Shown here: in pieces, positions 1,288-33,679 of the stretch
Numbering within the stretch: the first letter of the stretch is position 1
How the letters are laid out: each line of letters starts with the position of its first letter
NCBI GenBank assembly: GCA_020847735.1
Contig: JADLBL010000021.1
Location: forward strand, 190,059-226,485
Source: Candidatus Eisenbacteria bacterium
GTDB taxonomy: Bacteria > Eisenbacteria > RBG-16-71-46
Length of the DNA stretch: 36,427 nt
Direction: 5' to 3'
Position numbers and translations under genes: made by a program
Notes under the pieces: generated by a model
The model's input: the letters and a program-made list of their open reading frames with translations, nothing else
Told to the model about the DNA's origin: nothing
Databases searched by the model: none

Positions 1288-1292
1288 GCGCC

Positions 1293-8549: not shown

Positions 8550-8558
8550 GGGTATCCA

Positions 8559-8990
8559 ATGCCTCGACGATCAGTCAGCTTGGCCCAGCGCTGGCGGATG
8601 CTCGTATTTCTGACACTGAGTTGTGGACTCTTGTTCTCCTGTTCGGTGAGCCATGTCGCCGTGCTCATCCAGGGGGACGGCTCCACCCTCGGAAGTACCG
8701 TTGTGCTCGACGGGAGGGTGAGCGGCACGATGCAGGCTGTCGAAGGCACGATGCCAGACATTTACATCATAGATGGCACTGTGGATAGCGTCGGCAAAGC
8801 TATACAAAGGAGAGTGAGTTGTGGGCCTGGCTATGCTGAGTGTCGCGTGCGGGCCCTGCGAGGGGTGCACGTGTTTAGGCTGGTCAGCGTAGCCGGAGAC
8901 ACTCTCGAAGCGCGGGTGTACTTCACTGGAAACGCGCTCGTACGAGCATCGTTTGTAGCAGGTGGGGTACAGGCCCTCGAAGGCTCATGA
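8559..8990 (+). CDS. Small putative lipoprotein downstream of RHS tip (possible immunity protein)
   Basis: A 143-residue protein starting 9 nt after the RHS stop, with AGGGG overlapping that junction as a likely ribosome site. A charged N-terminus is followed by a hydrophobic stretch (MLVFLTLSCGLLFSC). Cys22 or Cys28 could be a lipidated cysteine, although neither lipobox is ideal (TLS-C, LFS-C). The mature part is beta-rich, contains SCGPGYAECRVRAL, and has no family I recognise. Base composition is more AT-rich than the RHS body and similar to the RHS tip, suggesting the two arrived together. Position directly after a polymorphic RHS C-terminus is where immunity genes usually sit, so immunity is a reasonable but untested inference; it could also be a secretion accessory. 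Confidence 0.6.
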   Translation: MPRRSVSLAQRWRMLVFLTLSCGLLFSCSVSHVAVLIQGDGSTLGSTVVLDGRVSGTMQAVEGTMPDIYIIDGTVDSVGKAIQRRVSCGPGYAECRVRALRGVHVFRLVSVAGDTLEARVYFTGNALVRASFVAGGVQALEGS

Positions 8991-9112
8991 CTCGTAGTTG
9001 CTGTATTAGAAAGTGGCCAAGCGCGACCACGGAAGGAGAGATTCAAGGGAGCTGCATGGGGTTGACCCCAAGGCCGGAGGAATGCCCAAGAGGAGTGAGT
9101 GGAGGCGCGGTG

Positions 9113-9216
9113 CTGAAGTTCAATGTCGCGGAGCTGGACGGCGACGGTGCACTGCGGGCCACCGTTACGCCTACGGCACGCAGGCACACGTGCCCGACCT
9201 GCTGGCGCGTGCGGCC
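9113..9216 (+). pseudogene. Orphan RHS core fragment, frameshifted
   Basis: The DNA closely matches the RHS gene around 7757-7850. One frame gives NVAELDGDGALR (the intact gene has NVVADLDGDGALR); after a one-base shift near 9150 another frame continues HRYAYGTQAHVPDLL (intact gene: HRYVYGTQAHVPDLL). Similarity stops after about 100 bp on both sides. The remaining open frames in 8991-9681 carry no recognisable domain. This looks like the remnant of a displaced RHS core, as seen behind RHS loci that have exchanged their tips. Confidence 0.75.
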
Positions 9217-9681: not shown

Positions 9682-10308
9682 TTGTCCATCCCGCCGCTCC
9701 CGCATCAACGACCCCCGCGCTACCTGACCCAGACGGAGGTCGGGCGCTTCTTCGCAGCGATCGCGAACGTGCGGGACCGGGCGCTCTTCGCGCTCATGTA
9801 CCACCATGGCCTGCGCGTGGGCGAGGTGCTCCTCCTACGGCGGGGAGACCTCGACCTCGAGCGCGGGCGCCTTCTTGTCCGGCGCTTGAAGGGCGGAGCC
9901 TGGAGCGAGCAGATCCTCTTCGCCGGGACGGCGACGCTCCTCCGCGCGTACGTGGCGGACCTGTCCGGTGGGCCTGACGACTCGCTCTTCCCGGGCCGGT
10001 TCGGGCCGCTCCAGCGCCGGCAGATCCAGTGCCGGTTCGTCCGCTACCGCTCGCTCGCCGGCCTGCCGCCGGACCGCACGACGCACTCGCTGCGGCATTC
10101 GATCGCCACGCACCTGCTGGAAGCCGGCGCCTCGCTCGAGTTCGTCCAGGACCACCTCGGCCACCAGGACGTCCGCAGCACGTCCGTCTACGCCCGCGTC
10201 ACCGACCGCATCCGCGAGTCGCAGATGCGGGCCTTCGAACGCTCGCCGCTCATCGTACAGCTCGATTCCGGCCGCGACCGCCCGGGAGGGACGGTTCGGC
10301 CGGAGTGA
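9682..10308 (+). CDS. Minimal tyrosine recombinase (catalytic domain only)
   Basis: 208 residues from TTG 9682; the frame is open back to a stop at 9619-9621 with no ATG or GTG, so the start is uncertain. The full catalytic set of a tyrosine recombinase is visible: Arg45 (HHGLRVGE), Lys70 (RRLKGG), His135-x-x-Arg138 (HSLRH), His161 (HLGHQD) and Tyr170 (STSVYARV). The N-terminal core-binding domain found in XerC/D or phage integrases is absent, so this is either a short-form recombinase or a 5'-truncated one. It would cut and rejoin DNA through a 3'-phosphotyrosine intermediate. A pair of 24-bp inverted repeats lies just upstream, and an orphan RHS fragment before that, suggesting a local DNA-rearrangement module. 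Confidence 0.8.
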   Translation: MSIPPLPHQRPPRYLTQTEVGRFFAAIANVRDRALFALMYHHGLRVGEVLLLRRGDLDLERGRLLVRRLKGGAWSEQILFAGTATLLRAYVADLSGGPDDSLFPGRFGPLQRRQIQCRFVRYRSLAGLPPDRTTHSLRHSIATHLLEAGASLEFVQDHLGHQDVRSTSVYARVTDRIRESQMRAFERSPLIVQLDSGRDRPGGTVRPE

Positions 10309-10337
10309 TCCCCTCCACCGCCCCTTCGAGGTGCAGC

Positions 10338-11990
10338 ATGCGAGCCCTCCGAATCCTTTCCGCCGTCGCGACCCTCCTTGTGTTCGGGCTGCTCACGAAC
10401 TGCTCGAAGAAGTCCGCACCAACGGCACCGCCAGCGAGTCCGACGTGCAGCATCAGCGAGACCTCGCTCGCGTTCGGGATCGTTCCACTCGGATCGAGTG
10501 CGGACCGCAGCTTCACGATCTCGAACACCGGCACCGGCACGCTGGACGGCACGGCCGGGACGACTTCCCCCGGGTACGTCGTGGTCGGAGGCGCCTCGTA
10601 CAGCCTCGGCGCCGGACAGGTGGCGACCGTGACGGTCCGCTTCACTCCCACGGGCTCGGGCTCGCACCCCGGGACCATCGCACTCTCCGGTTCCGGCTGT
10701 GGGTCGGTGGCCTGTTCGGCGACTGGCGGACCTTCCACCTGCCAAGTGGCGCCCACGACGCTCGCCTTCGACACGGTCACGGTCGGGCAGAGCGCCACGC
10801 GGACCTTCTCGATCACGAACGTGGGGACGGGCACCCTCGCCGGCACGGTAAGCGTCGCCTGCCCCGACTTCGCGCTCGTCGGCACCGGCGCCTACAGCCT
10901 CGGACCCAGCCAGGCGGCGACGTTCACGATCCGCTTCTCGCCGACCTCGGCCGGCCCGATGTCCTGCACGGTCAACACCGGGCTTCCCACCTGCTCCTCG
11001 GTCTCCTGCACCGGCAGTGGCGCGGCGGTCAACCCGGCCTGCGAGGTGTCGCCGAACGGCCTGCTCTACCCCAGCGTGCCGATCGGGGACCGGGCCGACG
11101 CCACCTTCACGATCCGCAACACCGGCACCGGCACGCTCTCCGGCACGATCGACGTGCCCGGGCCGTACTTCACGAACCCCGGCGCGTCGAGCTACAGCAT
11201 CGCCGCCGGGGCCAGCCAGACGTTCGTCGTGCGCTTCACGCCGACGCACGTGGCACCCGAGAGCTGCGACGTGACCACCGGCACCGGCTGCCGGCCAGTC
11301 CGCTGCTGGGGCAGTGGCCTCATCGGCTGCACGCTCGATCCCGACACCCTCGACTTCGGCTACGTCCACTACGGCGAGCGCGGGTATCGGACGTTCACGA
11401 TGTCCAACTACACCAACACCACGCTCTCTGGGAACCTCTCAACCACGGGATGGTTCGATGTCCGGAACAGCGCCGGCGGCAGGACGTACTCGATTCCGCC
11501 GCACGGCTCCGCCTGGTTCGGCGTCACCTTCGATCCACCGTCCCGGTGCGACACGGAGGTCTTCACCGGGGCCGTGCTCACCACCAGCTCGATCTGCAAC
11601 CGGGTGGGCCTGCGCGCCGTCGCGACGTACCGCTGTGACTGCACCGTCAGCCCGACCACGTTGGATTTCGGCAACGTGGTGATCGGCGACGCCACATCGT
11701 CGCTTCCGGTCCAGATCACGAACTCGACCCGCGAGGGAGGGCTGACCGGGGCCGTCCGCGTCGTTGCCGGCGACTTCGTGGCCAGCCCGAGCTACACCTG
11801 CCCGGCGTATCCGCCCGGGAACTGCGCCGTCTGTACCGCGACCATCGGCGTGAGCTTCCGGCCGCAGCGGCTCGGGCCGCAGATCGGAAAGGTCGTGGTC
11901 GAGAAGCCGGCGGGTTGCCTGGGCGCCGGTGCCGCCTGCGACACGATTACCTGCACCGGAACCGGAGTGACGGCGGCGGCTCGTCGCTGA
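10338..11990 (+). CDS. Lipoprotein with five choice-of-anchor-D repeats
   Basis: 550 residues from ATG 10338, chosen because the lipoprotein signal (LVFGLLTNCSKKSAP) begins there; the frame is open further upstream. After a Ser/Pro-rich linker come five tandem domains of roughly 100 residues, each opening like CxVxPTTLDFGxVxxG and containing TFTIxNTGTGTLxGT and VRFTPT. This is the ASPM/SPD-2/hydin-like (choice-of-anchor D) Ig fold. Each repeat ends with a Cys-rich strand (such as SVSCTGSG), so disulfides are likely and would fit an extracytoplasmic site. Repeats 4 and 5 are more diverged. The protein is probably anchored to the outer membrane and adhesive or structural. A 10-bp GC stem (11970-11979 with 11998-12007) brackets the stop codon but has no T-run. 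Confidence 0.85.
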   Translation: MRALRILSAVATLLVFGLLTNCSKKSAPTAPPASPTCSISETSLAFGIVPLGSSADRSFTISNTGTGTLDGTAGTTSPGYVVVGGASYSLGAGQVATVTVRFTPTGSGSHPGTIALSGSGCGSVACSATGGPSTCQVAPTTLAFDTVTVGQSATRTFSITNVGTGTLAGTVSVACPDFALVGTGAYSLGPSQAATFTIRFSPTSAGPMSCTVNTGLPTCSSVSCTGSGAAVNPACEVSPNGLLYPSVPIGDRADATFTIRNTGTGTLSGTIDVPGPYFTNPGASSYSIAAGASQTFVVRFTPTHVAPESCDVTTGTGCRPVRCWGSGLIGCTLDPDTLDFGYVHYGERGYRTFTMSNYTNTTLSGNLSTTGWFDVRNSAGGRTYSIPPHGSAWFGVTFDPPSRCDTEVFTGAVLTTSSICNRVGLRAVATYRCDCTVSPTTLDFGNVVIGDATSSLPVQITNSTREGGLTGAVRVVAGDFVASPSYTCPAYPPGNCAVCTATIGVSFRPQRLGPQIGKVVVEKPAGCLGAGAACDTITCTGTGVTAAARR

Positions 11991-21422: not shown

Positions 21423-21515
21423 TGAGGGAGGCTGTGGGCTCCGATAGCCTGCCGCCCGTCGCGAGCGCGGATGAACCGCGCCGCCGCCGGGAGGCGAAGG
21501 AGGATGATCGGAGCC

Positions 21516-22895
21516 ATGGCCAGACATCGAGTGCAGGTGTTGCGCGCCGCAGGCAAGACGCTGAAGCAGATCGTGGCGGAGACCGGGGTGTCGCAGTCGA
21601 GCGTGCAGCGGATCGGGCTGGAGCCGCCGCTCGAGACGGTCGCCGACCTGGTGCGGGTCGGGCGGCGCGGGGTGGGGCGGCCGAGCGTCGCCGAGCCGTG
21701 GCGCGACCGGGTGGCCGCCGTGCTCGCGGCTGAGCCGGAGCTGCCGACGGTGGAAGTCCTGCACCGGATGCGCGAGGAGCGTTACGCGGGCGGGAAGACA
21801 GCCCTCTACGAGCTGGTGCGCGAGTTGCGGCCGCATCCGACGACGCCACTGGTGCGCTTCGAGGGTGTGGCGGGCGAGTTCTCGCAGCACGACTTCGGGC
21901 AGGTCGAGGTGCGCTACGCCGACGGCGGCCACGAGCGCGTGCATTTCTTCGTGTCGCGACTGAAGTACTCGCGCTGGGTGGACGTTCGGCTGGTCGAGAA
22001 CGAGGGCGTCGAGTCGCTGGTGCGGAGCCTGCTGGCCGGCTTCGCGAGCTTCGGCGGCGTGCCGCTGGTGGCGGTGTTCGACAACCCCAAGACGGTGGTC
22101 CTGAGCCGCGAGGGCGGGCGGATCCAGTGGAACGACACGTTCGGCCAGACGGCGCTCGACTACCGCTTCGCACCGGAGCTGTGCACGCCGCGGCGCGGGC
22201 AGGAGAAGGGCTCGGCCGAGAACCTGGTCGGGTTCGTGAAGAACGGCTTCTTCAAGGTGCGGCGCTTCCACGATCACGAGGATATGGTCGCGCAGCTTGC
22301 CGCCTGGCATGTCGAGGTGAACACGATGCGGCCGTGTCGCGCCACGGGCGTGACGCCGGCGGCGCGGATCGAGGCCGAGCGCGAGCGGCTGCGGCCGCCG
22401 GCGATTGACCCGAGCGAGTACGCGCTGCGCTTCTCGGTGTTCGTCGGCCCGACGGGGCTGGTCAGCTTCCAGGGCTACCGCTACTCGATGCCGCCCGAGG
22501 CGATCGGCATCCCCGGGATGCTGTGGCTCTACCCGGAGCGGGTGCGGATCGTCGCCGGGCGCTTCGAACGCGAGCACGGCCGCGTGCCCGAGCAGGGCAA
22601 GGACTCGATCCATCCCGAGGACCGCACGCGGCGGCTGGCGCAGGTGGCCGGCAAGCGCGGGCGGCTGTACCTCAAACGCCAGGAGATCCTCGACCTGGGA
22701 CCCGCGGCCGAGGCGTTCCTCACCGAGATCGTCCACCGCCATCGCTTCACCTGGCAGGGCGAGGTCGAGCAGCTCCACGGCGCCCTCGTCCAACACGGGC
22801 CGGCGGCGCTGCACCGCGCGCTCGCCGCGGCTCACGCGCGCGAGCTCTACGGCGCCCCGCACGTGCTGCGACTGCTGGCGAAGGAGGTGGCGTGA
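21516..22895 (+). CDS. istA: IS21-family transposase IstA
   Basis: 459 residues from ATG 21516; ATGs at 21471 and 21504 are in frame, and AAGGAGG at 21497-21503 favours 21516. The N-terminal helix-turn-helix is LRAAGKTLKQIVAETGVSQSSVQRI. The retroviral-integrase-type core has Asp126 (SQHDFGQVEV), Asp189 (AVFDNPKT) and Glu235 (KGSAENLVGF), the DDE triad that catalyses strand transfer. A C-terminal beta-barrel-like domain follows (GYRYSMPPEAIGIPGMLWLY). Its stop overlaps the istB start (ATGA), the usual IS21 coupling. The frame is intact and probably active. Confidence 0.92.
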   Translation: MARHRVQVLRAAGKTLKQIVAETGVSQSSVQRIGLEPPLETVADLVRVGRRGVGRPSVAEPWRDRVAAVLAAEPELPTVEVLHRMREERYAGGKTALYELVRELRPHPTTPLVRFEGVAGEFSQHDFGQVEVRYADGGHERVHFFVSRLKYSRWVDVRLVENEGVESLVRSLLAGFASFGGVPLVAVFDNPKTVVLSREGGRIQWNDTFGQTALDYRFAPELCTPRRGQEKGSAENLVGFVKNGFFKVRRFHDHEDMVAQLAAWHVEVNTMRPCRATGVTPAARIEAERERLRPPAIDPSEYALRFSVFVGPTGLVSFQGYRYSMPPEAIGIPGMLWLYPERVRIVAGRFEREHGRVPEQGKDSIHPEDRTRRLAQVAGKRGRLYLKRQEILDLGPAAEAFLTEIVHRHRFTWQGEVEQLHGALVQHGPAALHRALAAAHARELYGAPHVLRLLAKEVA

Positions 22896-23737
22896 TGCAC
22901 GCGCTCGATCTCGACGGCATGCTGCGCCGGCTGCACCTGCCCACCGTGCGCCGGCTCTACCCCGAGTGCGAGCAGCGGGCGGAGACGGAAGACCAGTCCT
23001 ATCGCGACTTCCTCGCCACGCTGATCGCCGAGGAGGTCGCCCACCGCGCCCAGACTCGCATCGAACGCTCGGTTCGCAAGGCCCGCTTCCCGTTCCTGCG
23101 GACCATCGAGGACTTCGACTTCACCTTCCAGACCTCGGTGCGCCTGCAGCTGCTCGGCAGCTACCTCGGGCCCGAGCTCGTGACCGAGGGCCGCAGCCTC
23201 GTGCTATGCGGGCCCTCGGGCACCGGCAAGACCCACCTCGCGATCGCCGTCGCCTACCGCGCCATCCAGAACGGCTACGAGGCGTTGTTCACGAGCGCCG
23301 CCGGCATGATCGAGGACCTCTCGAGCGCTTCACGTCGCGGCGAACTCGCGCGCGCGCTCGCGTACTACACGCATCCGCCCGCGCTCGTGATCGACGAGGT
23401 CGGCTACCTGACCGTCGGCGGCGACGCGGCGAACCTGATGTTCCAGGTCGTCAACGAGCGCTACCTGCACCGGCGCCCGATGTTGTTCACTACCAACAAG
23501 CCGCTGGCGGCGTGGGGGCTGGTGCTGCACGACCCGGATCTCGCCGAGGCGATCCTCGATCGCGTCCTCGAGCGCGGTCGGCTGGTCGAGCTCCGCGGTG
23601 CGTCGTATCGTACCCGCCACCTCAAAGCCGTTGACCACCGGAGCGCGGCTCCCGAAGTGGTCAGAATATCCGGAAATCAGCGGTCAGACTTCCCGGAACC
23701 CACATCTTACATTCACGCATTCTGCGCTCGAAAGTGA
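22895..23737 (+). CDS. istB: IS21-family helper ATPase IstB
   Basis: 280 residues from ATG 22895. Walker A is LCGPSGTGKTH (Lys112) and Walker B ALVIDEVGYL (near 167), with an arginine-finger region NKPLAAWG ... ILDRVLERG. It is an AAA+ protein of the DnaA/DnaC class that assembles on target DNA and activates IstA. The frame continues through the right terminal repeats and ends 33 bp outside the element, so about 10 C-terminal residues are encoded by flanking DNA. The core is intact. Confidence 0.92.
   Translation: MHALDLDGMLRRLHLPTVRRLYPECEQRAETEDQSYRDFLATLIAEEVAHRAQTRIERSVRKARFPFLRTIEDFDFTFQTSVRLQLLGSYLGPELVTEGRSLVLCGPSGTGKTHLAIAVAYRAIQNGYEALFTSAAGMIEDLSSASRRGELARALAYYTHPPALVIDEVGYLTVGGDAANLMFQVVNERYLHRRPMLFTTNKPLAAWGLVLHDPDLAEAILDRVLERGRLVELRGASYRTRHLKAVDHRSAAPEVVRISGNQRSDFPEPTSYIHAFCARK
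23657..23704 (-). repeat. IS21 right end with two tandem terminal repeats
   Basis: In inverted orientation, outer copy TTCCGGGAAGTCTGACC (ending at 23698) and inner copy TTTCCGGATATTCTGACCAC (23657-23676). The IstB reading frame runs through this end. Confidence 0.85.
23705..23709 (+). repeat. Target-site duplication TCTTA (right copy)
   Basis: Right copy of the 5-bp duplication; joining the two flanks restores ...GGCCACCTCTTACATTC... as the pre-insertion sequence. Confidence 0.85.
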
Positions 23738-23800: not shown

Positions 23801-26602
23801 TTGGACAGTGGGGCTCATTTCCACAAGTGTGACCTGCAGGTCCACACGCCGCGCGACTTGAACTGGCAGGGTGCAGGCGCGACCTCGGAAGATGAGCGAA
23901 AGGCGTACGCAGCTGAGTTCGTGGCGGCATGCCGCGCCAGGAAACTTCAGGCTGTCGGGATCACCGACCACCACGATGTCGCCTTCATCCGGTACATCCG
24001 TGAAGCCGCGGCTCAAGAGACAGACGAGCAGGGCAAACCGCTGCCGGACCTGGAGCAGCTGGTGGTGTTCCCTGGCATGGAGCTCACCCTAGGGATTCCG
24101 TGCCAGGCTTTACTCTTGTTCGACTCGGACCTCCCAACCGAGTTCCTGCCGCTTGCCCTGCCCGCGCTAGGCATCACGCCAGCCGACGATGCGGCAGAGA
24201 AGCATGCTCAGATCAAGAAGCTCGACATAATGAGCTTCCAAGCCCTCTATTCAGCGCTCGACAAGATTGAGCCCTTACGTGGGCGGTTCATCGCGTTTCC
24301 GAATGTTGACGATCAAGGCTACCAAAGCCTCATCCGTAAGGGGTTCGAGAAACACTATGCAGATATGCCTTGCGTCGGTGGGTACGTTGACGGTCTCCTG
24401 CCCGTACCGCCGAAGGGCGACGGCATGCGGCGGATTACGGGTGGGCAAGACAAGAACTGGGGGAATAAGGCAATCGGTGTCTTTCAAACATCCGACTGCC
24501 GGAGTCGTGCGCTCGAGACCCTGGGGACACATGCAACCTGGATCAAGTGGGCCCGGCCAACCGCCGAAGCGCTGAGGCAGGCATGTCTCGCGAGCCACTC
24601 TCGGATTACGCACAGCGCTCCGACGGTGCCGCCGGTTCAGATCACTCGGGTTGAAGTAACAAACAGCAAGTTCTTGGGTCCGATTACGCTCGACTTCAAT
24701 CCCCAGTACAACGCGATTATCGGCGGAAGAGGCACAGGGAAGTCGACGATTCTCGAGTACATCCGGTGGGCGCTCTGCGACCAGCCAGTCCAAGCTGATG
24801 ATCCCGCAGAGCTGGCGGATTACGAGCGCCGCCGTCAAGGGCTCATCGACGGAACTCTCCTGCCGTTGGACGCAGTGGTTGATGTCGTGTTCCTGCTCAA
24901 CGGCGTTTCCCACACTGTTCGTCGAAAGGCGTCAGGCGAACTGACTCTTCGTATCGGAGATGCCGCCTTTCAAGGGTGCACCGAGAAGGATGTGCGAGAA
25001 CTGCTTCCGATTCGTGCCTACAGTCAGAAACAACTGAGCGCCGTTGGCGCGCGGCTCGATGAGTTGCGACGGTTCGTCCATGCCCCAATTCAGCCTGAGC
25101 TCGATGCGGCATCCGAGGGCATCGACAACGTAGCCGTGAACCTGCGCGGTGCATTCGAGCGGCTCGTGCGACATCGCGAACTTAGCGCCGAAATCAGCGC
25201 ACATGACATCGAACGCCGTTCACTCGGCGAACAGGTTGCACACCTACGCGCCACGCTCGCTGGCCTCCCTGAGGCCGACGCGGCAATCATCGATAGGCAA
25301 CCGAGCTACGAGGCCGAGCAGCGTGCTATTCAGACGCTTGAGCGTGAAGCGGCCGCAGCCAAGACGGCGCTCCAGTCAGCCCAAGCGGAACTGTCGCGCG
25401 TTCCTTCTCCTTTGGCCCAGAACGAATCAGCGAACAAGGCGCTGGTTGAGGGCGCACACGAGGCCTTCGGTCAATGGGTACGTCAGGCGAAGGACAGAAT
25501 CGATGCGTTAGTTCTGGAGCTTGCGACTCCAGCCGCGGGCTCTTCATTGAAGCAGTACGTCGAGCTGCTTGGTCAATGGCGTCAGCGCCGCGATGCACAC
25601 CGAGTGGAGTACGACGACGCCGCATCGCGAGCAAGCGTGCACGAGGAGACGCTTCGCGGTATCCAGGGGCTCGAAGGACGTTTGGCCGACCTCAATGCTC
25701 TTGCTGATCAGAAGAGCGATGATCTCAAGCGTTTGGGGGATCCGAATGCTGAAGTCTTGCGGCTTCGTGCTGAATGGAGGGATGCACACGCGAATCGCGC
25801 GACTCTGCTGGAGAAGCAATGCTCGGCGCTTACGTCGATAGCAGGATCTCGTCTCAAGGCCAGTCTTCGCAGGTCTGGTGACACGGAACCGCTGGCTGAG
25901 AAGCTGAAGCAGGTCATGAAGGGAACGACGATACGCGGCGATCGGATTGACTCCCTTGTGGAATCTCTCGGGAGTGCAAGTAACCCGTTCGGGGCTTGGC
26001 AAGACGTGCTGAGTGAACTGCTAGAGCTTGCTTGGGTTCATGTCGAGGAGGAAGCCACCGCGCAGTTGCCGTCCGTCCCGCGGCTCGACGCGGCCGGGTT
26101 CACCCAAAAGGCAAAGGTCGCCATGGCCCGCCAGCTTGAGCCGGACGCGTGGGTTGATCTGTTGCTCTTTGACGTGAAGGACCTGCCTGTATTTGAGTAC
26201 ATGGTGCGCCCTGGCGACTTCCTACCGTTCGCGGACGCCTCTCCAGGCCAACAGGCCACGGCGCTGCTTTCGATCTTGCTGCTGGAGGGTGGGCCGCCAC
26301 TGCTAGTCGACCAACCGGAAGATGACCTCAATATGCGGGTCATTAACGAGATTGTGACGACCCTCTGGCAAGCAAAAATCCAGAGGCAGATCATCTTCAG
26401 CAGCCACAACGCGAACCTCGTGGTGAATGGGGACGCAGAGCTCGTTACTTGCTGCGACTATCGGACAAGCGCAACGGAACACGGCGGCCGAATTAAACTC
26501 ATGGGCGCTATCGACGTCCCGATGATCAATAGAGAGATTGCAGAGGTAATGGAAGGCGGCGAGGCAGCGTTCAAGTTGCGTTACAAGAAGTACGGCTTCT
26601 AG
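23801..26602 (+). CDS. PHP-domain / SMC-like ATPase (TrlF-like)
   Basis: 933 residues from TTG 23801 (AGAGAGG just upstream). The N-terminal PHP-type phosphoesterase has CDLQVHTPRDLN (about 10-21) and GITDHHD (53-59) with metal-binding His/Asp residues. The ATPase head has Walker A IIGGRGTGKST (307-316), a Gln-containing central hinge, long coiled coils at about 430-760, an ABC signature-like SPGQQATALLSILLLEGG (about 813-830), Walker B LLVDQPEDDLN and the H-loop SSHN. I recall this architecture from the TrlF family of AAA-like ATPases found in defence islands. PHP domains hydrolyse phosphoesters, so a DNA- or RNA-directed nuclease gated by ATP is plausible. The IS21 element sits 96 bp upstream and may have separated it from its promoter. 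It converges on the ubiquitin-like operon, with only 38 bp between stops. Confidence 0.85.
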   Translation: MDSGAHFHKCDLQVHTPRDLNWQGAGATSEDERKAYAAEFVAACRARKLQAVGITDHHDVAFIRYIREAAAQETDEQGKPLPDLEQLVVFPGMELTLGIPCQALLLFDSDLPTEFLPLALPALGITPADDAAEKHAQIKKLDIMSFQALYSALDKIEPLRGRFIAFPNVDDQGYQSLIRKGFEKHYADMPCVGGYVDGLLPVPPKGDGMRRITGGQDKNWGNKAIGVFQTSDCRSRALETLGTHATWIKWARPTAEALRQACLASHSRITHSAPTVPPVQITRVEVTNSKFLGPITLDFNPQYNAIIGGRGTGKSTILEYIRWALCDQPVQADDPAELADYERRRQGLIDGTLLPLDAVVDVVFLLNGVSHTVRRKASGELTLRIGDAAFQGCTEKDVRELLPIRAYSQKQLSAVGARLDELRRFVHAPIQPELDAASEGIDNVAVNLRGAFERLVRHRELSAEISAHDIERRSLGEQVAHLRATLAGLPEADAAIIDRQPSYEAEQRAIQTLEREAAAAKTALQSAQAELSRVPSPLAQNESANKALVEGAHEAFGQWVRQAKDRIDALVLELATPAAGSSLKQYVELLGQWRQRRDAHRVEYDDAASRASVHEETLRGIQGLEGRLADLNALADQKSDDLKRLGDPNAEVLRLRAEWRDAHANRATLLEKQCSALTSIAGSRLKASLRRSGDTEPLAEKLKQVMKGTTIRGDRIDSLVESLGSASNPFGAWQDVLSELLELAWVHVEEEATAQLPSVPRLDAAGFTQKAKVAMARQLEPDAWVDLLLFDVKDLPVFEYMVRPGDFLPFADASPGQQATALLSILLLEGGPPLLVDQPEDDLNMRVINEIVTTLWQAKIQRQIIFSSHNANLVVNGDAELVTCCDYRTSATEHGGRIKLMGAIDVPMINREIAEVMEGGEAAFKLRYKKYGF

Positions 26603-26640: not shown

Positions 26641-28110
26641 CTAGAGATCAGCGAACGGCATGTCCGCGTTGTCGCCTTGACCCTCAAAGGGGTTGCAGTG
26701 GCGACATCTGGGATCGCGGTGTCGCGGCACCTCTGCGAGCGTACCCGGAATCATGTCGTAGTACAGCTCCGTCACCGCGCGCCTTGAGAGTATGAAGATC
26801 AAGTCTTGCAAGCGTAGTTCCACCAGGGCCGACGTTAAGCTGTTCATCGGCATCACGCTGGGTGCGTGTTCGGGGCCGAGACCTTCAACGTAGCCGCGGT
26901 GTCGATCTGCTGCTCTATCTTCCACGGTGCGAAAGGCCTTGCTCAATTTCATTGAGTCGAGATGCCCGGAGCACCACAGACACGCGTGGCCTGGACCAAC
27001 CGTGTTGATGCGGACGGCCCCGTTCTCGACGACCCCGTGTTCGCAATGCGGGTCATCCTCTGCGGTTGAGGCGATGACGCTGCCACCGTCGATTACCGGA
27101 ATGAAGTGCGCGTAGGAGAGGCGATTCAGAAAGTGGCGAGGCCGAGGATCGTCCACGAGCGACAGAATGATGTCCGCATCTAGAAGTCTGGGCAGTTCTG
27201 ATGACCGACGAAGATCGCGATCGCTGTGACGTACGCGGATGTCTCGCTGTAGCGCAAATGTACGGAGCGCCGCGGCAAGTACCGGCGCCTTGTGTCGCCT
27301 CGCACGCGCATCGTCGAAGGTATAGACGGACGATCGGTTGATGTTGACGTCCGTGATGACGTCGGGGTCCCAGAGGCTCACTGCCCCCACGCCCCAACGG
27401 GCGATGTGATCTGCGACGATCGATCCGACGCCACCGTTGCCGGCAACCACGATATGTAGGTCGGCCAACTGACGCTGCCCTTCTCTTCCGAAGACTCGAA
27501 TGGAGCGGTCCGCGAATTCCGGGACGTCCTCGCCTTCGGCGCGAGGATGGTCGATCGTCCTCTGCGCTTCGAAGGCATCGGCCGCAATCGTCCTCACTCT
27601 ATGAATCGGATCGAAGACGCTCTTGCCATCGACTTGAGACCACCGAATGGCGCGACCGCGCAAGGCGCCGCGCGACGCGACGAGAGATAGAAGTGGAGCC
27701 CCAGGTGGCAGAAGACCGACACCAAGGAAGCACTCGCCCAGATCCTTGTCGGTGGAGTCATCCGTGACACTCCAGACCGGTGGGCCGCTTCCGCCCGGGT
27801 GGGTATGCAACACGCAGAGTCCAACGAGGCCATCCTGTCGGCGCGCGATGTCCACAGCGCGGTTCCAGTACTTCGCCGTCAGACTGACGTTGCCCCACTT
27901 GTCGTGCTCCAGATCACCACGCTCTGGGGTGATGGCCTTCTGAACAAGAAATGTAGCGCGCGTGGCTCCGCTGCTCCGGCGCACCAAAGCAAGCAGGGCT
28001 CCCTCACGCGGAGCAAACTCGAGCGCCCCGCCCCAAACCGCTGCCCGTGTGGGAGCAGTCCAGGCGATTTCAGCCTGCAGGTCGGTTGCAGCGGCGGTAG
28101 GTGCGGCCAC
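26641..28110 (-). CDS. JAB-E1 fusion of ubiquitin-like operon
   Basis: 489 residues from GTG 28110, 3 nt after the E2-fold gene stop. The N-terminal JAMM domain has Glu36, His102-x-His104 and Ser114-x-x-Asp117; the His-Ser spacing is two residues longer than the classical motif. The ThiF/E1 domain has GNGGVG (224-229), WDPDVITDVNINR (247-259) and two zinc-type Cys pairs, Cys377/Cys380 and Cys469/Cys472. E1 enzymes activate the C-terminus of a ubiquitin-like protein with ATP, while JAMM domains process or remove it. I see no obvious extra Cys in the crossover-loop region to act as a thioester-forming nucleophile. It is the last gene of a three-gene operon. Confidence 0.88.
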   Translation of the reverse strand: MAAPTAAATDLQAEIAWTAPTRAAVWGGALEFAPREGALLALVRRSSGATRATFLVQKAITPERGDLEHDKWGNVSLTAKYWNRAVDIARRQDGLVGLCVLHTHPGGSGPPVWSVTDDSTDKDLGECFLGVGLLPPGAPLLSLVASRGALRGRAIRWSQVDGKSVFDPIHRVRTIAADAFEAQRTIDHPRAEGEDVPEFADRSIRVFGREGQRQLADLHIVVAGNGGVGSIVADHIARWGVGAVSLWDPDVITDVNINRSSVYTFDDARARRHKAPVLAAALRTFALQRDIRVRHSDRDLRRSSELPRLLDADIILSLVDDPRPRHFLNRLSYAHFIPVIDGGSVIASTAEDDPHCEHGVVENGAVRINTVGPGHACLWCSGHLDSMKLSKAFRTVEDRAADRHRGYVEGLGPEHAPSVMPMNSLTSALVELRLQDLIFILSRRAVTELYYDMIPGTLAEVPRHRDPRCRHCNPFEGQGDNADMPFADL

Positions 28111-28113
28111 GGT

Positions 28114-28518
28114 CTAGTTCTTTCTTAGAAACCGGCCTTCCAAGGTCGCAAGGTGGGTTTCGAGGGAGTCGCGGGTCGGGTCAAACTGTGGGCCCTTGGG
28201 TCCCCAGGAGAACTTCATCCACTTCTCCCCAAGTAGATCGGCATCAGCGTTGGTTGCCTGTGGCTGGCCCTTCGACTCCATTACGGTCAACGTCCGAGGC
28301 TTGATGTAGAAACCGGAGGTATCGGGAACGGCGTCGGGATAGATGGCCGGCACGAGGAAAGCGAGAGCCTCGATCACGTTCGACGAGTAGACCGCCGCGA
28401 CGGGCAGGGTGTACGGCTCGAGGATGACGGCGACTTGTTCGCCGACATCCTCGCACCGAACCTTCGATCCGGGTCGACTGAGCCGACCAGCTTCATCTCG
28501 GATTCGCTCGCGGCTCAT
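28114..28518 (-). CDS. E2-fold protein (Prok-E2_E-like) without catalytic-position Cys
   Basis: 134 residues from ATG 28518, overlapping the ubiquitin-like gene by 4 bp (ATGA). The stretch LPVAAVYSSNVIEALAFLVPAIYPDAVPDTSGFYIKPRT fits the beta-sheet and YPxxxPD turn of bacterial E2 family E, with MKFSW ... DSLETHLATLEGRFL as the C-terminal part. The only cysteine is Cys22, before the fold core; the region after the YPDAVPD turn, where an E2 normally holds its catalytic Cys, has none. Either another residue (a Ser, for example) carries the tag as an ester, or the protein is an adaptor. Family-level assignment is good; mechanism is inference. Confidence 0.75.
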   Translation of the reverse strand: MSRERIRDEAGRLSRPGSKVRCEDVGEQVAVILEPYTLPVAAVYSSNVIEALAFLVPAIYPDAVPDTSGFYIKPRTLTVMESKGQPQATNADADLLGEKWMKFSWGPKGPQFDPTRDSLETHLATLEGRFLRKN

Positions 28519-28811
28519 ACGCGCATGCCCGCCGAGTAGTCGGTCCCTTTGAGCATCGCCCGGAAGTGGTCGCCGGGCTTCACGTGGACCGTGCTCGTCA
28601 GCGGGATCTCGTCTCCGACCTGCCCCCCGTGCTCGTTGTACAGGCGGTACTTCTCCGGGTCGAGCCCGACTCGCTCGAGAATCTGGGCCGCGGTGAGGTC
28701 CTCGCCGTGCGGCTCGACGTGGCCCTTCCGGTCTCCAACGTGGAAGAAGGGTCCGCCATCGCCGGGCGACTGAGCCGCTTCCTTGGCGGCCGGGTTGTTC
28801 TGAACGCTCAT
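28515..28811 (-). CDS. Ubiquitin-like beta-grasp protein (multiubiquitin-like, single domain)
   Basis: 98 residues from ATG 28811 (GGAAAGAGG upstream on its strand). After an acidic/polar leader of about 22 residues, the pattern FHVGDRKGHVEPHGEDLTAAQILERVG ... DEIPLTSTVHVKPGDHF matches the bacterial multiubiquitin-type beta-grasp fold: two strands, a helix, then strands. The C-terminus is AMLKGTDYSAGMRV, with no diglycine. Either the tail is trimmed by the JAMM domain, or a different residue is conjugated. It is first in an operon with an E2-fold protein and a JAB-E1, the arrangement of described bacterial ubiquitination-like operons. Confidence 0.8.
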   Translation of the reverse strand: MSVQNNPAAKEAAQSPGDGGPFFHVGDRKGHVEPHGEDLTAAQILERVGLDPEKYRLYNEHGGQVGDEIPLTSTVHVKPGDHFRAMLKGTDYSAGMRV

Positions 28812-28877
28812 AGCCTCTTTCCTTGCAGGGCCTTGGTGAATCGAGGCTGCCGGCCCACGTGAGCTGCCTCTGCGGGC

Positions 28878-28907
28878 ATTGTCGCGCGATTGGTCGCGGT
28901 CTGTCAA
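28878..28907 (-). promoter_or_regulatory. Candidate promoter of the ubiquitin-like operon
   Basis: On the minus strand, TTGACA (28907-28902), an 18-bp spacer and GACAAT (28883-28878), about 65 bp upstream of the ubiquitin-like start. The -10 box is a 4-of-6 match. The palindromic operator lies 28 bp upstream of the -35 box. Confidence 0.45.
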
Positions 28908-28935
28908 GTAGACACATGCATATCGCATCGTCAGA

Positions 28936-28954
28936 TGAACAAACTGTTTGTTCA
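28936..28954. promoter_or_regulatory. Perfect 19-bp palindromic operator
   Basis: TGAACAAAC-T-GTTTGTTCA has 9-bp perfect arms around one central base. It ends one base before the -35 box of the XRE gene promoter and lies in the divergent intergenic region shared with the ubiquitin-like operon. Palindromes of this size are typical targets of dimeric XRE regulators, so the neighbouring regulator is the likely ligand. Confidence 0.7.
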
Positions 28955-28955
28955 C

Positions 28956-28983
28956 TTGACACCCAGAGGTCGATTGGGATACT
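28956..28983 (+). promoter_or_regulatory. Promoter of the XRE/ImmA operon, probably leaderless
   Basis: TTGACA (28956-28961), 16-bp spacer, GATACT (28978-28983). The predicted transcription start, about 7 nt after the -10 box, falls within a couple of bases of GTG 28992, and no ribosome site is visible. The mRNA would be leaderless or nearly so. Confidence 0.65.
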
Positions 28984-28991
28984 GTTCACGC

Positions 28992-29342
28992 GTGCCAAGA
29001 ACAACCGCCCCAGCACTCTACCGACAGATCGGCGATCGGATCGCTGCGAAGCGGCGCGAGCGCCGTCCGCTGATGAGCCAACAAGGACTCGCAACCGCGG
29101 CAGGCGTGTCGCGAGCGACCATCGTGAACATCGAGCGCGGGCGCCACCGAGTGCAGCTCCACGTTCTCTACGACATCGCCCGCGCACTCGGGGCAGGCGT
29201 CCAGGATCTACTCCCGAGGCTCTCCGCCTCGGCGCCGCCGCCGCTTCCCCAAGACATCCTAACTAAGCTAAAGCCCGATGAAGTGGCTTCGGTAGGCCGC
29301 TTGCTTGAGGACACTCACGGAGGCCAACATGGCGAGCAATAG
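28992..29342 (+). CDS. XRE-family transcriptional regulator
   Basis: 116 residues from GTG 28992; the frame is open further upstream but crosses the operator and promoter. The helix-turn-helix MSQQGLATAAGVSRATIVNIERGRH (about 28-52) is a canonical XRE domain, followed by a dimerisation-like helix and a Pro-rich linker. Its 3' end overlaps the ImmA/IrrE gene by 14 bp. XRE/ImmA pairs usually form a repressor cleaved by its partner protease on a stress signal. It probably binds the palindrome 38 bp upstream and so represses itself, and perhaps the divergent ubiquitin-like operon. Confidence 0.85.
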   Translation: MPRTTAPALYRQIGDRIAAKRRERRPLMSQQGLATAAGVSRATIVNIERGRHRVQLHVLYDIARALGAGVQDLLPRLSASAPPPLPQDILTKLKPDEVASVGRLLEDTHGGQHGEQ

Positions 29343-29856
29343 GATTGCGAGAGCCGCACATGAGGTGCTGCGTGAAACCGACACGACGAAGGCGCCGGTA
29401 CCTGTCTTCGATATTGCCCGAAGGCTTGGGGTTGTTCTTCGCGTCGGCCCTCTTCCTGAAGAGCTGAGTGGTTTCTTAGTCCGCGAAGGCGGGAAAGTGG
29501 TCATCGGAGTGAATAGCCTTCATCCAAAGCAGCGGCAAGCGTTTACCGTGGCTCACGAACTTGGGCATTTGAGGCTTCACCGCGACGATAGCTTCGTCGA
29601 TCGAGGGTTTTCGTTCTACTTTCGAAACCAACGATCAAGTCAGGCTGTCGATCAGAAAGAAGTCCAGGCAAATCAGTTTGCCGCTGAGCTGCTGATGCCA
29701 GCGCATCTGCTAGAGCCCCTGCTCAACGGAAGGTCTGTCGACGTCGGCGATGAGCATTTCATCAGTTCTCTCGCCAAGCAGTTCCAAGTGAGCAGCCAGG
29801 CAATGACCTTCCGACTCATAAACCTGGGAAAGGCCAAGCGAGATACTGGAAACTGA
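29329..29856 (+). CDS. ImmA/IrrE-family zinc metallopeptidase
   Basis: 175 residues from ATG 29329 with GGAGG at 29319-29323. The zinc site is VAHELGHLRLH (His76-Glu77-x-x-His80), with a probable third ligand in EVQANQFAAELLMP, the hallmark order of the family. A C-terminal helical region (HFISSLAKQFQVSSQAMTFRL) is typical of the ImmA-type DNA- or protein-binding tail. Family members cleave XRE repressors to switch on the locus. It overlaps the XRE gene, which is the likely substrate. Confidence 0.88.
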   Translation: MASNRIARAAHEVLRETDTTKAPVPVFDIARRLGVVLRVGPLPEELSGFLVREGGKVVIGVNSLHPKQRQAFTVAHELGHLRLHRDDSFVDRGFSFYFRNQRSSQAVDQKEVQANQFAAELLMPAHLLEPLLNGRSVDVGDEHFISSLAKQFQVSSQAMTFRLINLGKAKRDTGN

Positions 29857-29913: not shown

Positions 29914-31314
29914 ATGACCAATGCCTCCGCGGGTAAGGATCGCGGATCCGGGCGCTGGACGAACCGATCCGTCAAGGCGTTGGCACAGGACCGCGACCCA
30001 GTGCAACTCATTATCGCCCTCGCTCGCCAGACGGCGATTGAGGCCCTCGACAAGGGATGGATAGGGCCTCCATTTGATCCGATTTCGCTCGCCGAAATCC
30101 TGGGCCATGAAGTCGCCGCGAATACCGACATTCGCGACGCTCGAACGGTGCCCGCCGCTCGCGGCAGAGTTAGGATCGAGTTCAATCCGAGCCGGCCTCG
30201 TGGTCGAATGCGTTACTCGATTGCGCACGAGATCGCCCATACGCTATTCCCTGATGTAGGGGAACGAATCAGGAATCGCGCTGCACACGCCGAGCTCCAA
30301 GGCGATGACTGGCAGCTTGAGGCCCTATGCAACATCGCTGCGGCAGAACTGCTCATGCCTTACGGTGCTCTAGCCATGCAGCGCCCGCAGGACTTGACTG
30401 CTCATGCGATTCTCGAGCTTCGCAAGCGCTTTGATGTGTCCACTGAAGCCCTTGTTATTCGTCTTGCTGAAACGAGCGAGGGGCGTGTCGCCGCGTTCTG
30501 CGCTTCTCCAACCTCTACCGCAGTCGAGGGAGTTAAGTACCGCCTTGACTACGTAATCGGGTCAAACGGCTGGCGGCCAGGCGGACGAAGCACTCGGTTA
30601 CCGGACGACTCGGCGATCCGTGAGTGCACGGCGATTGGCTACTCTGCACGTGGCTTGGAGACGTGGTGGGAAGACTTGGGCAAGATGCAAGTCGAAGCAA
30701 TAGGCATTCCGCCATATCCAGGGAGCGGGTTGCCGAGAGTCGTTGGATTGTTGAGGGTGTCCGATCGCACTCACTCGCATCCCGCGATCAAGTACGTTCA
30801 CGGCAACGCGACGGATCCACGCGGCAGTGGTCTTCGGATGGTTGTGCAAGTCGTCAACGATAAGACTGCGAACTGGGGTGGTGGAGGCTTCGCAAGTGCG
30901 GTGCGAAGGGCCTGGCCAGTAGTTCAGCGGGACTTCAAGGAATGGGCTGAAGGTCAGCGCTCGGCATTCAAGCTGGGAGCTGTTCGCCTGACTGAAGCGG
31001 ACGACCGGACGCTTGTCGCCAGCATTGTGGCGCAGCATGGCTACGGTCCCTCGCCAAGACCGCGTGTGCGCTACACAGAGCTTCGGGAGGGATTACGCCA
31101 AGTGGCCCGCCTCGCGATCGATCGTGGAGCGACGATCCATTTACCCCGCATCGGAACGGGACAAGCTGGCGGGAGTTGGAACGTCGTCCGCGACTTGGTC
31201 GTCGAGACGCTAATCTCCGCGGGACTTCACGTAACGGTCTACGATTTGCCCGGATCATCGGCGCCCGCCGAACCCCAACTTGGCTTGAGCCTCAGCCAGA
31301 CGGAAGACGCCTAA
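29914..31314 (+). CDS. ImmA/IrrE-like peptidase fused to a macrodomain
   Basis: 466 residues from ATG 29914 (AGGAG upstream). The N-terminal part has the zinc site YSIAHEIAHTLFPD (His105-Glu106-x-x-His109) and CNIAAAELLMPYGAL, followed by an ImmA-like helical tail to about 190. From about 292 a macrodomain begins: KYVHGNATDPRG, VVNDKTANWGGGGFASAVRRAWP and LPRIGTGQAGGSW, resembling Poa1p-like macrodomains that bind ADP-ribose or remove it from targets. The roughly 100 residues between the two are unassigned. A second zinc peptidase directly after the first is unusual. With a putative ADP-ribosyltransferase two genes downstream, the macrodomain could be the neutralising or reversing enzyme; this is inference. 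Confidence 0.82.
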   Translation: MTNASAGKDRGSGRWTNRSVKALAQDRDPVQLIIALARQTAIEALDKGWIGPPFDPISLAEILGHEVAANTDIRDARTVPAARGRVRIEFNPSRPRGRMRYSIAHEIAHTLFPDVGERIRNRAAHAELQGDDWQLEALCNIAAAELLMPYGALAMQRPQDLTAHAILELRKRFDVSTEALVIRLAETSEGRVAAFCASPTSTAVEGVKYRLDYVIGSNGWRPGGRSTRLPDDSAIRECTAIGYSARGLETWWEDLGKMQVEAIGIPPYPGSGLPRVVGLLRVSDRTHSHPAIKYVHGNATDPRGSGLRMVVQVVNDKTANWGGGGFASAVRRAWPVVQRDFKEWAEGQRSAFKLGAVRLTEADDRTLVASIVAQHGYGPSPRPRVRYTELREGLRQVARLAIDRGATIHLPRIGTGQAGGSWNVVRDLVVETLISAGLHVTVYDLPGSSAPAEPQLGLSLSQTEDA

Positions 31315-31335: not shown

Positions 31336-33018
31336 ATGGCGAGACCTTCTACTCCGATACCTAGCCATCCTGCAGGGAGACAGACCGGCCTTCTGCCTGG
31401 GCAGCTGATTGTGCTGTCAGGGCCCGTGTCCGCCGGAAAATCAACGCTCGCTGCAACGTTGGCGGAGAAGTTCGGAGTCACGCACTTCAAGACCCACGAA
31501 ATGATCCAACGGTTGACGGGCGCCCCGTTGGATCGGGCCGCGTTGCAGAAGGCCGGCGAACGACTCGACCGCAAAACGAATGGCCGGTGGGTCGCTGCTG
31601 AGATCACCCGGGTCCTCGGGGAGATGTCCGATGCGAGCGGCTCATCCGTCGAATCGCGTCGAGTACTTGTCGACTCCTCGCGGCTGCTGAGCCAAATCGA
31701 AGCGCTCCGTCAGGCTTTCGGCCAGCGCGTCGTGCACATTCATCTCACTGCGCCCGAAGCAGAGTTGCGTCGCCGCTACCTCACGAGACGGACTGCAATG
31801 CGAGAGCTTCCGTCCTATGCAGCCCTGCGGAGAGATCGCACCGAGGCGGTAATTGACCGGTTGAAGGCGTCAGCCGACATCGTCATCGACACCCATCGCA
31901 ACACTCGCGATGACGTTGTCGTGCGTGTGGCATCGCAGCTTGGCTTTTACGGGCGAGGCTGTGAGCGATTGGTTGATGTTCTAGTCGGCGGCGAGTACGG
32001 CAGCGAGGGCAAAGGGCAAATCTCCGCCTATTTGGCCCCGGAGTACGACGTGCTTGTCCGTGTTGGTGGTCCCAATGCCGGCCATCAGGTATTCGAAGTG
32101 CCCACCCCTCGGACGTGGCACCACCTTCCCTCCGGTACCGCGCGCAACCCTCGCGCGCAAGTTGTCCTGGGACCGGGCGCGGTACTTCGGGTTCCGAACC
32201 TGCTGGCAGAAATTGCGAGTGCTGAGGTGTCCTACAAGCGACTCTCAATCGACCCGAAGGCAATGATCATCTCTGACGAAGACATTAAGGCGGAAACTGG
32301 GCTCAAGGCATCGATCGGTTCAACGGGGCAGGGGGTCGGATATGCAACGGCCCGAAAAGTTCTCCGCGGCGGCGGAACAGATCGAGTGCTTCTTGCCAAG
32401 GACGTCCCCGCACTCCGACGCTACGTTCGAGACGCCCTCGAGATACTTGAGAATGCGTACGCGAAGGGGCGCCGTGTCTTCTTGGAGGGAACGCAGGGTA
32501 CGGGGCTCTCCCTCCACCACGGAGAGTACCCACACGTTACATCGCGCGACACCACCGTAGGAGGGTGTCTTGGCGAGGCCGGGATTTCCCCGGCACGAGT
32601 GCGCCGAATCGTAATGGTCTGCAGGACCTATCCTATCCGGGTTCAAAGCCCGCCGGGGAAGACCTCAGGCAGAATGAGTCGCGAGCTGAAATGGGCGGAA
32701 ATCGCTCGGCGATCGCGCATTCCACTCAAGGAGCTGCGCAAGAACGAGCGCACCTCAACGACGAAAAGGAAACGACGCGTCGGTGAGTTCGACTGGGTCT
32801 TGATCCGAAGAGCGGCCTCGCTCAATGGCCCCACGGACATCGCGCTGACGTTTGCCGACTATATCGACGTCCAGAACCGGAAGGCGCGTCGATTTGATCA
32901 ACTCTCACCCGAAACCCTTCAGTTTATCGCAGAGCTTGAACGCGTGGCCTCCGCGCCCGTCTCCTTGGTGGCAACGAGATTCGCTTTCAGAAGCATCATC
33001 GACCGGCGAATGTGGTAG
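31336..33018 (+). CDS. Kinase-adenylosuccinate synthetase (PurA/PurZ-like) fusion
   Basis: 560 residues from ATG 31336. The N-terminal P-loop kinase (about 22-205) has LSGPVSAGKST (Lys35) and an LID-like RRRYLTRRTAMRE, like nucleoside-monophosphate kinases. From about 211 comes an adenylosuccinate-synthetase fold: VLVGGEYGSEGKGQ, VRVGGPNAGH (His250), WHHLPSG, IGSTGQGVGYATA, FLEGTQGTGLSLHHGEYPHVTSRDTT and the aspartate-binding-like TTKRKRR. In PurA the first motif is normally GDEGKG, with Asp as catalytic base; here it is Ser223. I recall phage PurZ enzymes, which act on dGMP to make 2-aminoadenine precursors, also departing from Asp at this point (not verified). The substrate may therefore not be IMP. 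It is unlikely to be the housekeeping purA, given the fusion and location. Confidence 0.82.
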   Translation: MARPSTPIPSHPAGRQTGLLPGQLIVLSGPVSAGKSTLAATLAEKFGVTHFKTHEMIQRLTGAPLDRAALQKAGERLDRKTNGRWVAAEITRVLGEMSDASGSSVESRRVLVDSSRLLSQIEALRQAFGQRVVHIHLTAPEAELRRRYLTRRTAMRELPSYAALRRDRTEAVIDRLKASADIVIDTHRNTRDDVVVRVASQLGFYGRGCERLVDVLVGGEYGSEGKGQISAYLAPEYDVLVRVGGPNAGHQVFEVPTPRTWHHLPSGTARNPRAQVVLGPGAVLRVPNLLAEIASAEVSYKRLSIDPKAMIISDEDIKAETGLKASIGSTGQGVGYATARKVLRGGGTDRVLLAKDVPALRRYVRDALEILENAYAKGRRVFLEGTQGTGLSLHHGEYPHVTSRDTTVGGCLGEAGISPARVRRIVMVCRTYPIRVQSPPGKTSGRMSRELKWAEIARRSRIPLKELRKNERTSTTKRKRRVGEFDWVLIRRAASLNGPTDIALTFADYIDVQNRKARRFDQLSPETLQFIAELERVASAPVSLVATRFAFRSIIDRRMW

Positions 33019-33046: not shown

Positions 33047-33679
33047 ATGCCGTTCGACTCGGAGGTCTTCGCAGCGCGAAGGCCCTACCTCTTTCACCTG
33101 ACGGCGCGAAGCAATGTGGCCCGCATTCGGGCTGCTCGTCGACTGCACAGCATGGTTGTCCTGGCGCGCAAGGCTGGCAGAGAGGATCTGTTGAACGTCC
33201 GGCGTCGGGAGCACGTTCAACTCAGCGTTCAGGGTAAAGCAGTGCACATCAGGGACCAAGCCCCACTTCACGAGAACAACATGTCCTTGGAAGACGGCTG
33301 GACATTCCCGCAGTTCGTGCGCGACCTCAACGAGCGCGTGTTCTTCTGGCCCGGGGGACTCTCAGGCCCAATTGCCCACGGACTCCGCCACTTTGCCCGG
33401 TATCGGGAAGAGCGCCCAGTGCTGCTGCGAATCCCCACCGATGGCCTCTTCGCTGCCAATAGCGGTGTGCGTCCACTCTATTGCCGCTACAACTCCGGAT
33501 CGCCCCGTTGGAGTCGCGGCGTAGCATCACCTCGCGGGCCGGCCACATTTGTGCCCTCTAATCAAGCGACGTTCTCACCATCCAGCGTGGTCGAGGTGGC
33601 TTTCATGCGTGGCGCCGTGCTACCCAATGGTTCGGAGGTCGGCAACGGCCCGTCTGGACCGTGGCGTCGTTTGTTCTAG
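33047..33679 (+). CDS. DUF7002 / DarT-like putative ADP-ribosyltransferase
   Basis: 210 residues from ATG 33047 (GAAAGGA upstream). It opens with YLFHLTARSNVARIRAARRLHS (His17), then IRDQAPL, a conserved-looking LNERVFFWPGG, and near the end SVVEVAFMRGAVLP (Glu183). A His in an LxHxT strand, a central FF strand and a late Glu match the layout of DarT-like and DUF7002 ADP-ribosyltransferase folds, which transfer ADP-ribose from NAD+ to DNA or protein. The macrodomain fusion two genes upstream would fit as its counteracting partner. The family match is from memory; the activity is inferred. Confidence 0.65.
   Translation: MPFDSEVFAARRPYLFHLTARSNVARIRAARRLHSMVVLARKAGREDLLNVRRREHVQLSVQGKAVHIRDQAPLHENNMSLEDGWTFPQFVRDLNERVFFWPGGLSGPIAHGLRHFARYREERPVLLRIPTDGLFAANSGVRPLYCRYNSGSPRWSRGVASPRGPATFVPSNQATFSPSSVVEVAFMRGAVLPNGSEVGNGPSGPWRRLF

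Follow-up and report, generated by a model that had tools for sequence, protein, structure and literature searches.

The window, a stretch of 36,427 nucleotides from a Candidatus Eisenbacteria contig (JADLBL010000021.1, assembly GCA_020847735.1), carries a compact operon of three genes on the minus strand, running from 28811 down to 26641. The first gene (28515..28811) encodes a 98-residue, BubA-like beta-grasp protein, assigned as ubiquitin-like (Ubl) from its alignment with 24 relatives at the equal operon position; the second (28114..28518) encodes a BubB-like, E2-fold protein of 134 residues that belongs to the Prok-E2_E family; and the third (26641..28110), which begins with GTG, encodes a BubCD-like fusion of JAB and E1 domains (489 residues). 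The Ubl and E2 genes overlap by four bases (ATGA), and a gap of three bases separates the E2 gene from the E1 gene. The nearest relative found is locus L011 in a Gemmatimonadetes MAG, with identities of 52% for E1, 51% for E2 and 42% for Ubl. Because both of its junctions, Ubl/E2 and E2/E1, are exactly identical to those of the window operon, the three frames can be taken as real genes. The coordinates, order and tight junctions given by the earlier note are correct.

The JAB-E1 fusion has its best PDB match in Citrobacter BubCD (phmmer E=1.4e-19), and this match spans residues 71-426, including both domains. Its AlphaFold model (pLDDT 89.6) likewise fits BubCD best (9ea4, Z 37.2 over 433 residues), while the E1 part of the model resembles ThiF, MoeB and eukaryotic E1s with Z scores of 24-27. 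Against Pfam, the fusion matches ThiF (PF00899) with E=3.9e-25, and the Prok-JAB match is weak. The JAB/JAMM peptidase domain (27556..28080, minus strand) nevertheless has an intact zinc site (Glu36, His102, His104, Ser114 and Asp117), whose columns are invariant or nearly so; Asp117 lies in an HxHP...SxxD motif shared with BubCD, in which the corresponding Asp104 is mutated in structure 9ea5. The E1/ThiF adenylation domain (26656..27543, minus strand) retains Gly224-x-Gly-x-x-Gly229, Asp248, Asp250, Asn256, Arg259, Lys274 and Asp320, and the residues for ATP binding and adenylation are invariant among relatives. Three further residues, Cys377, Cys380 and Cys469, are conserved, and together with Cys472, present here, they occupy the places of the zinc ligands of ThiF and MoeB. 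The retention of these zinc-type cysteines and the proximity of the E1 fold to ThiF and MoeB (Z 27) would accord with a sulfur-carrier pathway of the ThiS/MoaD kind in place of protein conjugation, yet such a role is highly improbable: neither a rhodanese nor a sulfur gene occurs among the scanned neighbours, the operon includes an E2-fold partner and a JAB peptidase, the Ubl tail lacks a diglycine, and for both JAB-E1 and E2 the Bub proteins are the better match.

The crossover loop of the E1 domain (residues about 381-419) contains no cysteine, in agreement with the earlier note, and no Cys, Ser or Thr of this loop is both conserved in relatives and present here. The loop does contain an invariant tyrosine that had been missed, Tyr407 (codon 26890..26892, minus strand), which is kept in 77 of 79 sequences, the exceptions being one truncated and one misaligned sequence. 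Tyr407 aligns with BubCD Tyr370, a residue replaced by Phe in 9eav, titled BubCD(D104A/Y370F)-BubB-BubA(155-229), and the presence of Y370F in that construct therefore marks this tyrosine as important. A cysteine at E1 position 318 was also weighed as a possible relay residue and dismissed: it is kept in 73 of 78 relatives, but the position is Leu here and Ala in L011.

On its own, the Ubl matches no Pfam family, Multi_ubiq (PF14452) included; that family is matched by 10 of the 25 aligned Ubl members (E<0.01). Its identity therefore rests on operon position and on alignment with relatives. A relation to BubA itself is tentative: the Ubl profile reaches BubA with E=0.27 and multi-ubiquitin proteins with 7e-9, and the operon position agrees with it. 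The description of this protein as ubiquitin-like without a diglycine thus holds for the tail, with the correction that Pfam assigns it no family, and it had left out a likely processing of that tail. Among non-fused sequences, the tail ends exactly in V/T/A-A/S in 56 of 68, and the window Ubl runs five residues past this usual end; L011 and two other loci (L067 and L079) likewise carry short extensions there. Given this overrun, the extension AGMRV (28518..28532, minus strand) is predicted from the aligned tail ends of relatives to be cut off after Ser93, between GTDYS and AGMRV, and trimming by the JAB domain offers the simplest reading. Natural one-frame fusions of Ubl and E2 occur at seven loci (L009, L024, L032, L039, L044, L054 and L066). 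Most such fusions have Val-Ser or Val-Ala at the domain junction, as if for cutting by the JAB domain.

The E2-like protein matches Prok-E2_E (PF14462) with E=1.9e-10 and 41 bits, against a gathering cut-off of 25. Its AlphaFold model (pLDDT 84.7) has BubB (9eae_C) as the top Foldseek match, with a VIA Z of 11.5, followed by eukaryotic E2s with Z of 5-7, and the family profile finds Citrobacter BubB with E=2e-4. The protein contains a single cysteine, Cys22, which lies away from the expected site, as had been claimed: in the model it is on the first strand, well separated along the chain from the active-site strand, and it is not conserved among the 74 aligned E2 sequences. Nor do the relatives have a conserved cysteine that was lost here; they share an invariant serine instead. 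Among the aligned sequences, conservation is highest at Ser104 and Trp100, and a serine is kept at the Ser104 position (codon 28207..28209, minus strand) in 74 of 74 sequences, 70 by a strict pattern and four (L005, L012, L004 and L022) by inspection, in which it lies within FSWH or RWSH and is shifted by alignment gaps. BubB has YQRWSRHRSWN at this place, so that the YQRWSRH motif is also found there. Read from the sequence, Ser104 is separated from Phe112-Asp-Pro by the same eight residues that separate the E2 catalytic cysteine from Trp-Ser-Pro, and each of these tripeptides precedes the next long helix. When the family was aligned with yeast Ubc4 by hhalign, the aligned part covered only Tyr-Pro...Pro and did not reach the Ser/Cys region; the equivalence of Ser104 to the E2 cysteine is therefore drawn from the spacing of the motif, from the E2-fold model and from BubB. 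The canonical E2 (UBC) catalytic cysteine is thus absent and Ser104 stands at its site, where we infer it to be the nucleophile. Judged by the aligned sequences, the replacement of Cys by Ser is a trait of the whole family and not of the window operon alone.

The lack of a cysteine at this site can also be read as a sign that the E2-fold protein is inactive in the manner of RWD or UEV domains and serves only to bind and position the Ubl, while E1 passes it to targets from the adenylate or from Tyr407. An inactive RWD-like fold was proposed for the E2/RWD-like family of operon type 6e in a 2006 survey (PMC1779556), and the structural matches of the E2 model include the UEV domain 3r3q (Z 7). 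A scaffold would have no obvious reason, however, to keep a serine in 74 of 74 sequences from bacteria and archaea whose identity to the window protein falls to 8-20%, which makes this reading rather unlikely. Less probable still is a scheme in which the Ubl is held covalently by Tyr407 alone, with Ser104 in a hydrogen-bonding or oxyanion role. Tyr407 equals Ser104 in conservation, it lies in the crossover loop at the place of the E1 relay cysteine, and its BubCD counterpart Tyr370 is Phe in a solved complex; a tyrosine, on the other hand, may equally act as a general base or positioning residue.

Ubiquitin-type transfer has long been equated with cysteine thioesters. The window holds a complete operon of the Bub (bacterial ubiquitination-like) type, which probably moves its Ubl as an oxygen ester. 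In such a pathway, the JAB domain would trim the Ubl to ...GTDYS, and the E1 domain, whose catalytic residues are intact, would adenylate the new C-terminus with ATP. The Ubl would then be loaded onto Ser104 of the E2-fold protein as an oxygen ester rather than a thioester, either directly from the adenylate or via Tyr407, and be passed by the E2 to a target protein, from which the JAB domain might later cut it off. A stricter version, a two-step all-oxygen relay through Tyr407 and then Ser104 that follows a five-residue JAB trim and extends from bacteria to haloarchaeal plasmids, is a tentative proposal with perhaps one chance in a few of being right. The main mechanistic Bub paper, by Ye et al. 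in 2026, is said to report oxyester intermediates. The suggestion in the earlier note of chemistry other than a thioester, perhaps through Ser, remains likely, and with the invariant serine the operon is best read as using a mechanism without cysteine; the note's implication that the operon is peculiar in this respect does not stand, as all relatives share the serine. With a serine E2 site and a tyrosine E1 loop throughout the family, this minimal three-gene operon makes the alternative chemistry testable with two point mutants, and the Ubl tail extension offers a simple assay handle for the JAB domain.

The Bub pathway of Citrobacter (BubA, BubB and BubCD; PDB 9ea4, 9ea5, 9ea8, 9eae and 9eav) shares with the window operon a Ubl, a Cys-less E2 with a WSR-type motif and a JAB-E1 fusion. 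Citrobacter BubCD has the equal crossover-loop tyrosine, and the overall folds match those of the window proteins, with identities of about 18-23% when the structures are aligned. The two differ in the Ubl, which here is a single domain extended at its C terminus, while the solved part of BubA, residues 155-229, belongs to a longer protein. They differ also in the CxxC zinc-type cysteines, which the window E1 keeps and Citrobacter BubCD lacks at the corresponding place. The Bil system and CBASS Cap2 have the Ubl/E1/E2/JAB logic and the defence setting in common with the window operon, and use a cysteine E1 and E2. The PADLOC E1-E2 models match the E1 domain only of the window operon, and weakly. 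The general arrangement was described as operon type 6e by Iyer, Burroughs and Aravind in 2006, with a Ubl of 1-3 repeats and a Cys-less E2/RWD-like gene between the Ubl and the JAB-E1 fusion (PMC1779556). Its fourth gene, for a metal-binding protein, is missing here: no zinc-finger gene of this type was found downstream of the operon, where the next gene is convergent. The operon is accordingly a member of a type described since 2006 (PMC1779556), with a serine E2 site throughout the family and a relative with solved structures under the name Bub, a name now applied to 544 operons (PMC13373217), and not a singular case.

Upstream of the operon and divergent from it lie a CapH-like helix-turn-helix repressor gene (28986..29342, plus strand; HTH_31 E=2.8e-10, HTH_3 E=3.8e-10), in an arrangement like that of L011, and a gene for a CapP-like M78 (ImmA/IrrE) peptidase (29305..29856, plus strand; PF06114 E=8.4e-22). 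The window thus presents the gene combination of CapH+CapP regulation, an HTH repressor and an M78 peptidase beside an immune-type operon. The earlier note had overlooked this pair. The divergent promoter region (28812..28991) contains promoter-like sites at 28907-28878 on the minus strand and 28956-28983 on the plus strand, with 0.4 expected by chance in the scanned stretch. Between these sites is a perfect 19-bp palindrome, TGAACAAACTGTTTGTTCA (28936..28954), a candidate operator that has this sole match in the window, 0.01 being expected with up to three mismatches. A divergent M78-type gene lies upstream in 26 of 74 E2-bearing loci, with other placements in 3, and in L011 the HTH-M78 pair is complete. 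Many Bub operons have a CapH/CapP-like regulator nearby, as here: CapH+CapP or CapW, responsive to DNA damage, flank 219 of 544, and phage protection by Bub operons has so far not been shown (PMC13373217). By analogy with the named relatives, the CapH-like repressor would block expression and the CapP-like protease would relieve this block on single-stranded DNA, so that the pair and the palindrome together suggest induction of the operon by DNA damage.

Relatives of the JAB-E1 fusion numbered 70 in a scan of genome contigs, and further ones were found on plasmids, haloarchaeal plasmids included; with the window protein as query, viral contigs yielded none. An E1 alignment of nine distant members had no stretch conserved enough for scanning, and a closer set was used instead. 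In nearly all relatives the JAB-E1 gene is immediately preceded by an E2-like sequence, and the gene order Ubl-E2-JAB-E1 is common to bacteria and haloarchaea. A tblastn search of plasmids with the E2 gave no match, although E2 genes are present there, the sequence being too diverged. Within the phylum, the window's own genome was the only one of 47 searched to have the E1; the operon is thus patchy, as expected of mobile genes. That the family is spread over haloarchaea and many phyla of bacteria is relevant to the origin of the eukaryotic cascade. Loci L003, L004 and L022 are haloarchaeal (Halorussus, Haloplanus and Haloferax), two of the three on plasmids, with the equal three-gene operon and Ubl tails that end in GENYV or GSGRS. 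In proteobacterial plasmid operons (L005, L007 and L009), DUF6527 genes follow JAB-E1, and L005 also has a phosphotransferase; neither kind of gene follows the window operon.

Beyond the regulator, a second M78 (ImmA/IrrE) peptidase is encoded at 29914-31314, whose C-terminal half is macro-domain-like (HLPRIGTGQAGG) and has no Pfam match. It is followed by a P-loop kinase-like domain fused to adenylosuccinate synthetase (31336-33018) and by a DUF7002 gene (33047-33679). In Terrabacter (L074), a pair of this kind (7389-9197 and 9860-10561) adjoins the Bub-type operon, and the synthetase fusion has relatives on Rhizobiaceae plasmids. The synthetase/DUF7002 pair is not regarded as specially linked to the operon: two Rhizobiaceae plasmids carry the synthetase with no Bub-type operon nearby, and the pair is therefore taken as a shared passenger of defence islands. 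On the other side, a large SMC-like ATPase whose N-terminal part is PHP-like (23801-26602; PADLOC Ppl, E=8e-47) is convergent with the operon. Farther on, 21471-23737 encodes an IS21-type transposase fragment and an IstB helper ATPase, the latter being the most likely source of a PADLOC DrmD match at this place. An RHS/teneurin-like protein of 2421 residues is encoded at 1284-8549.
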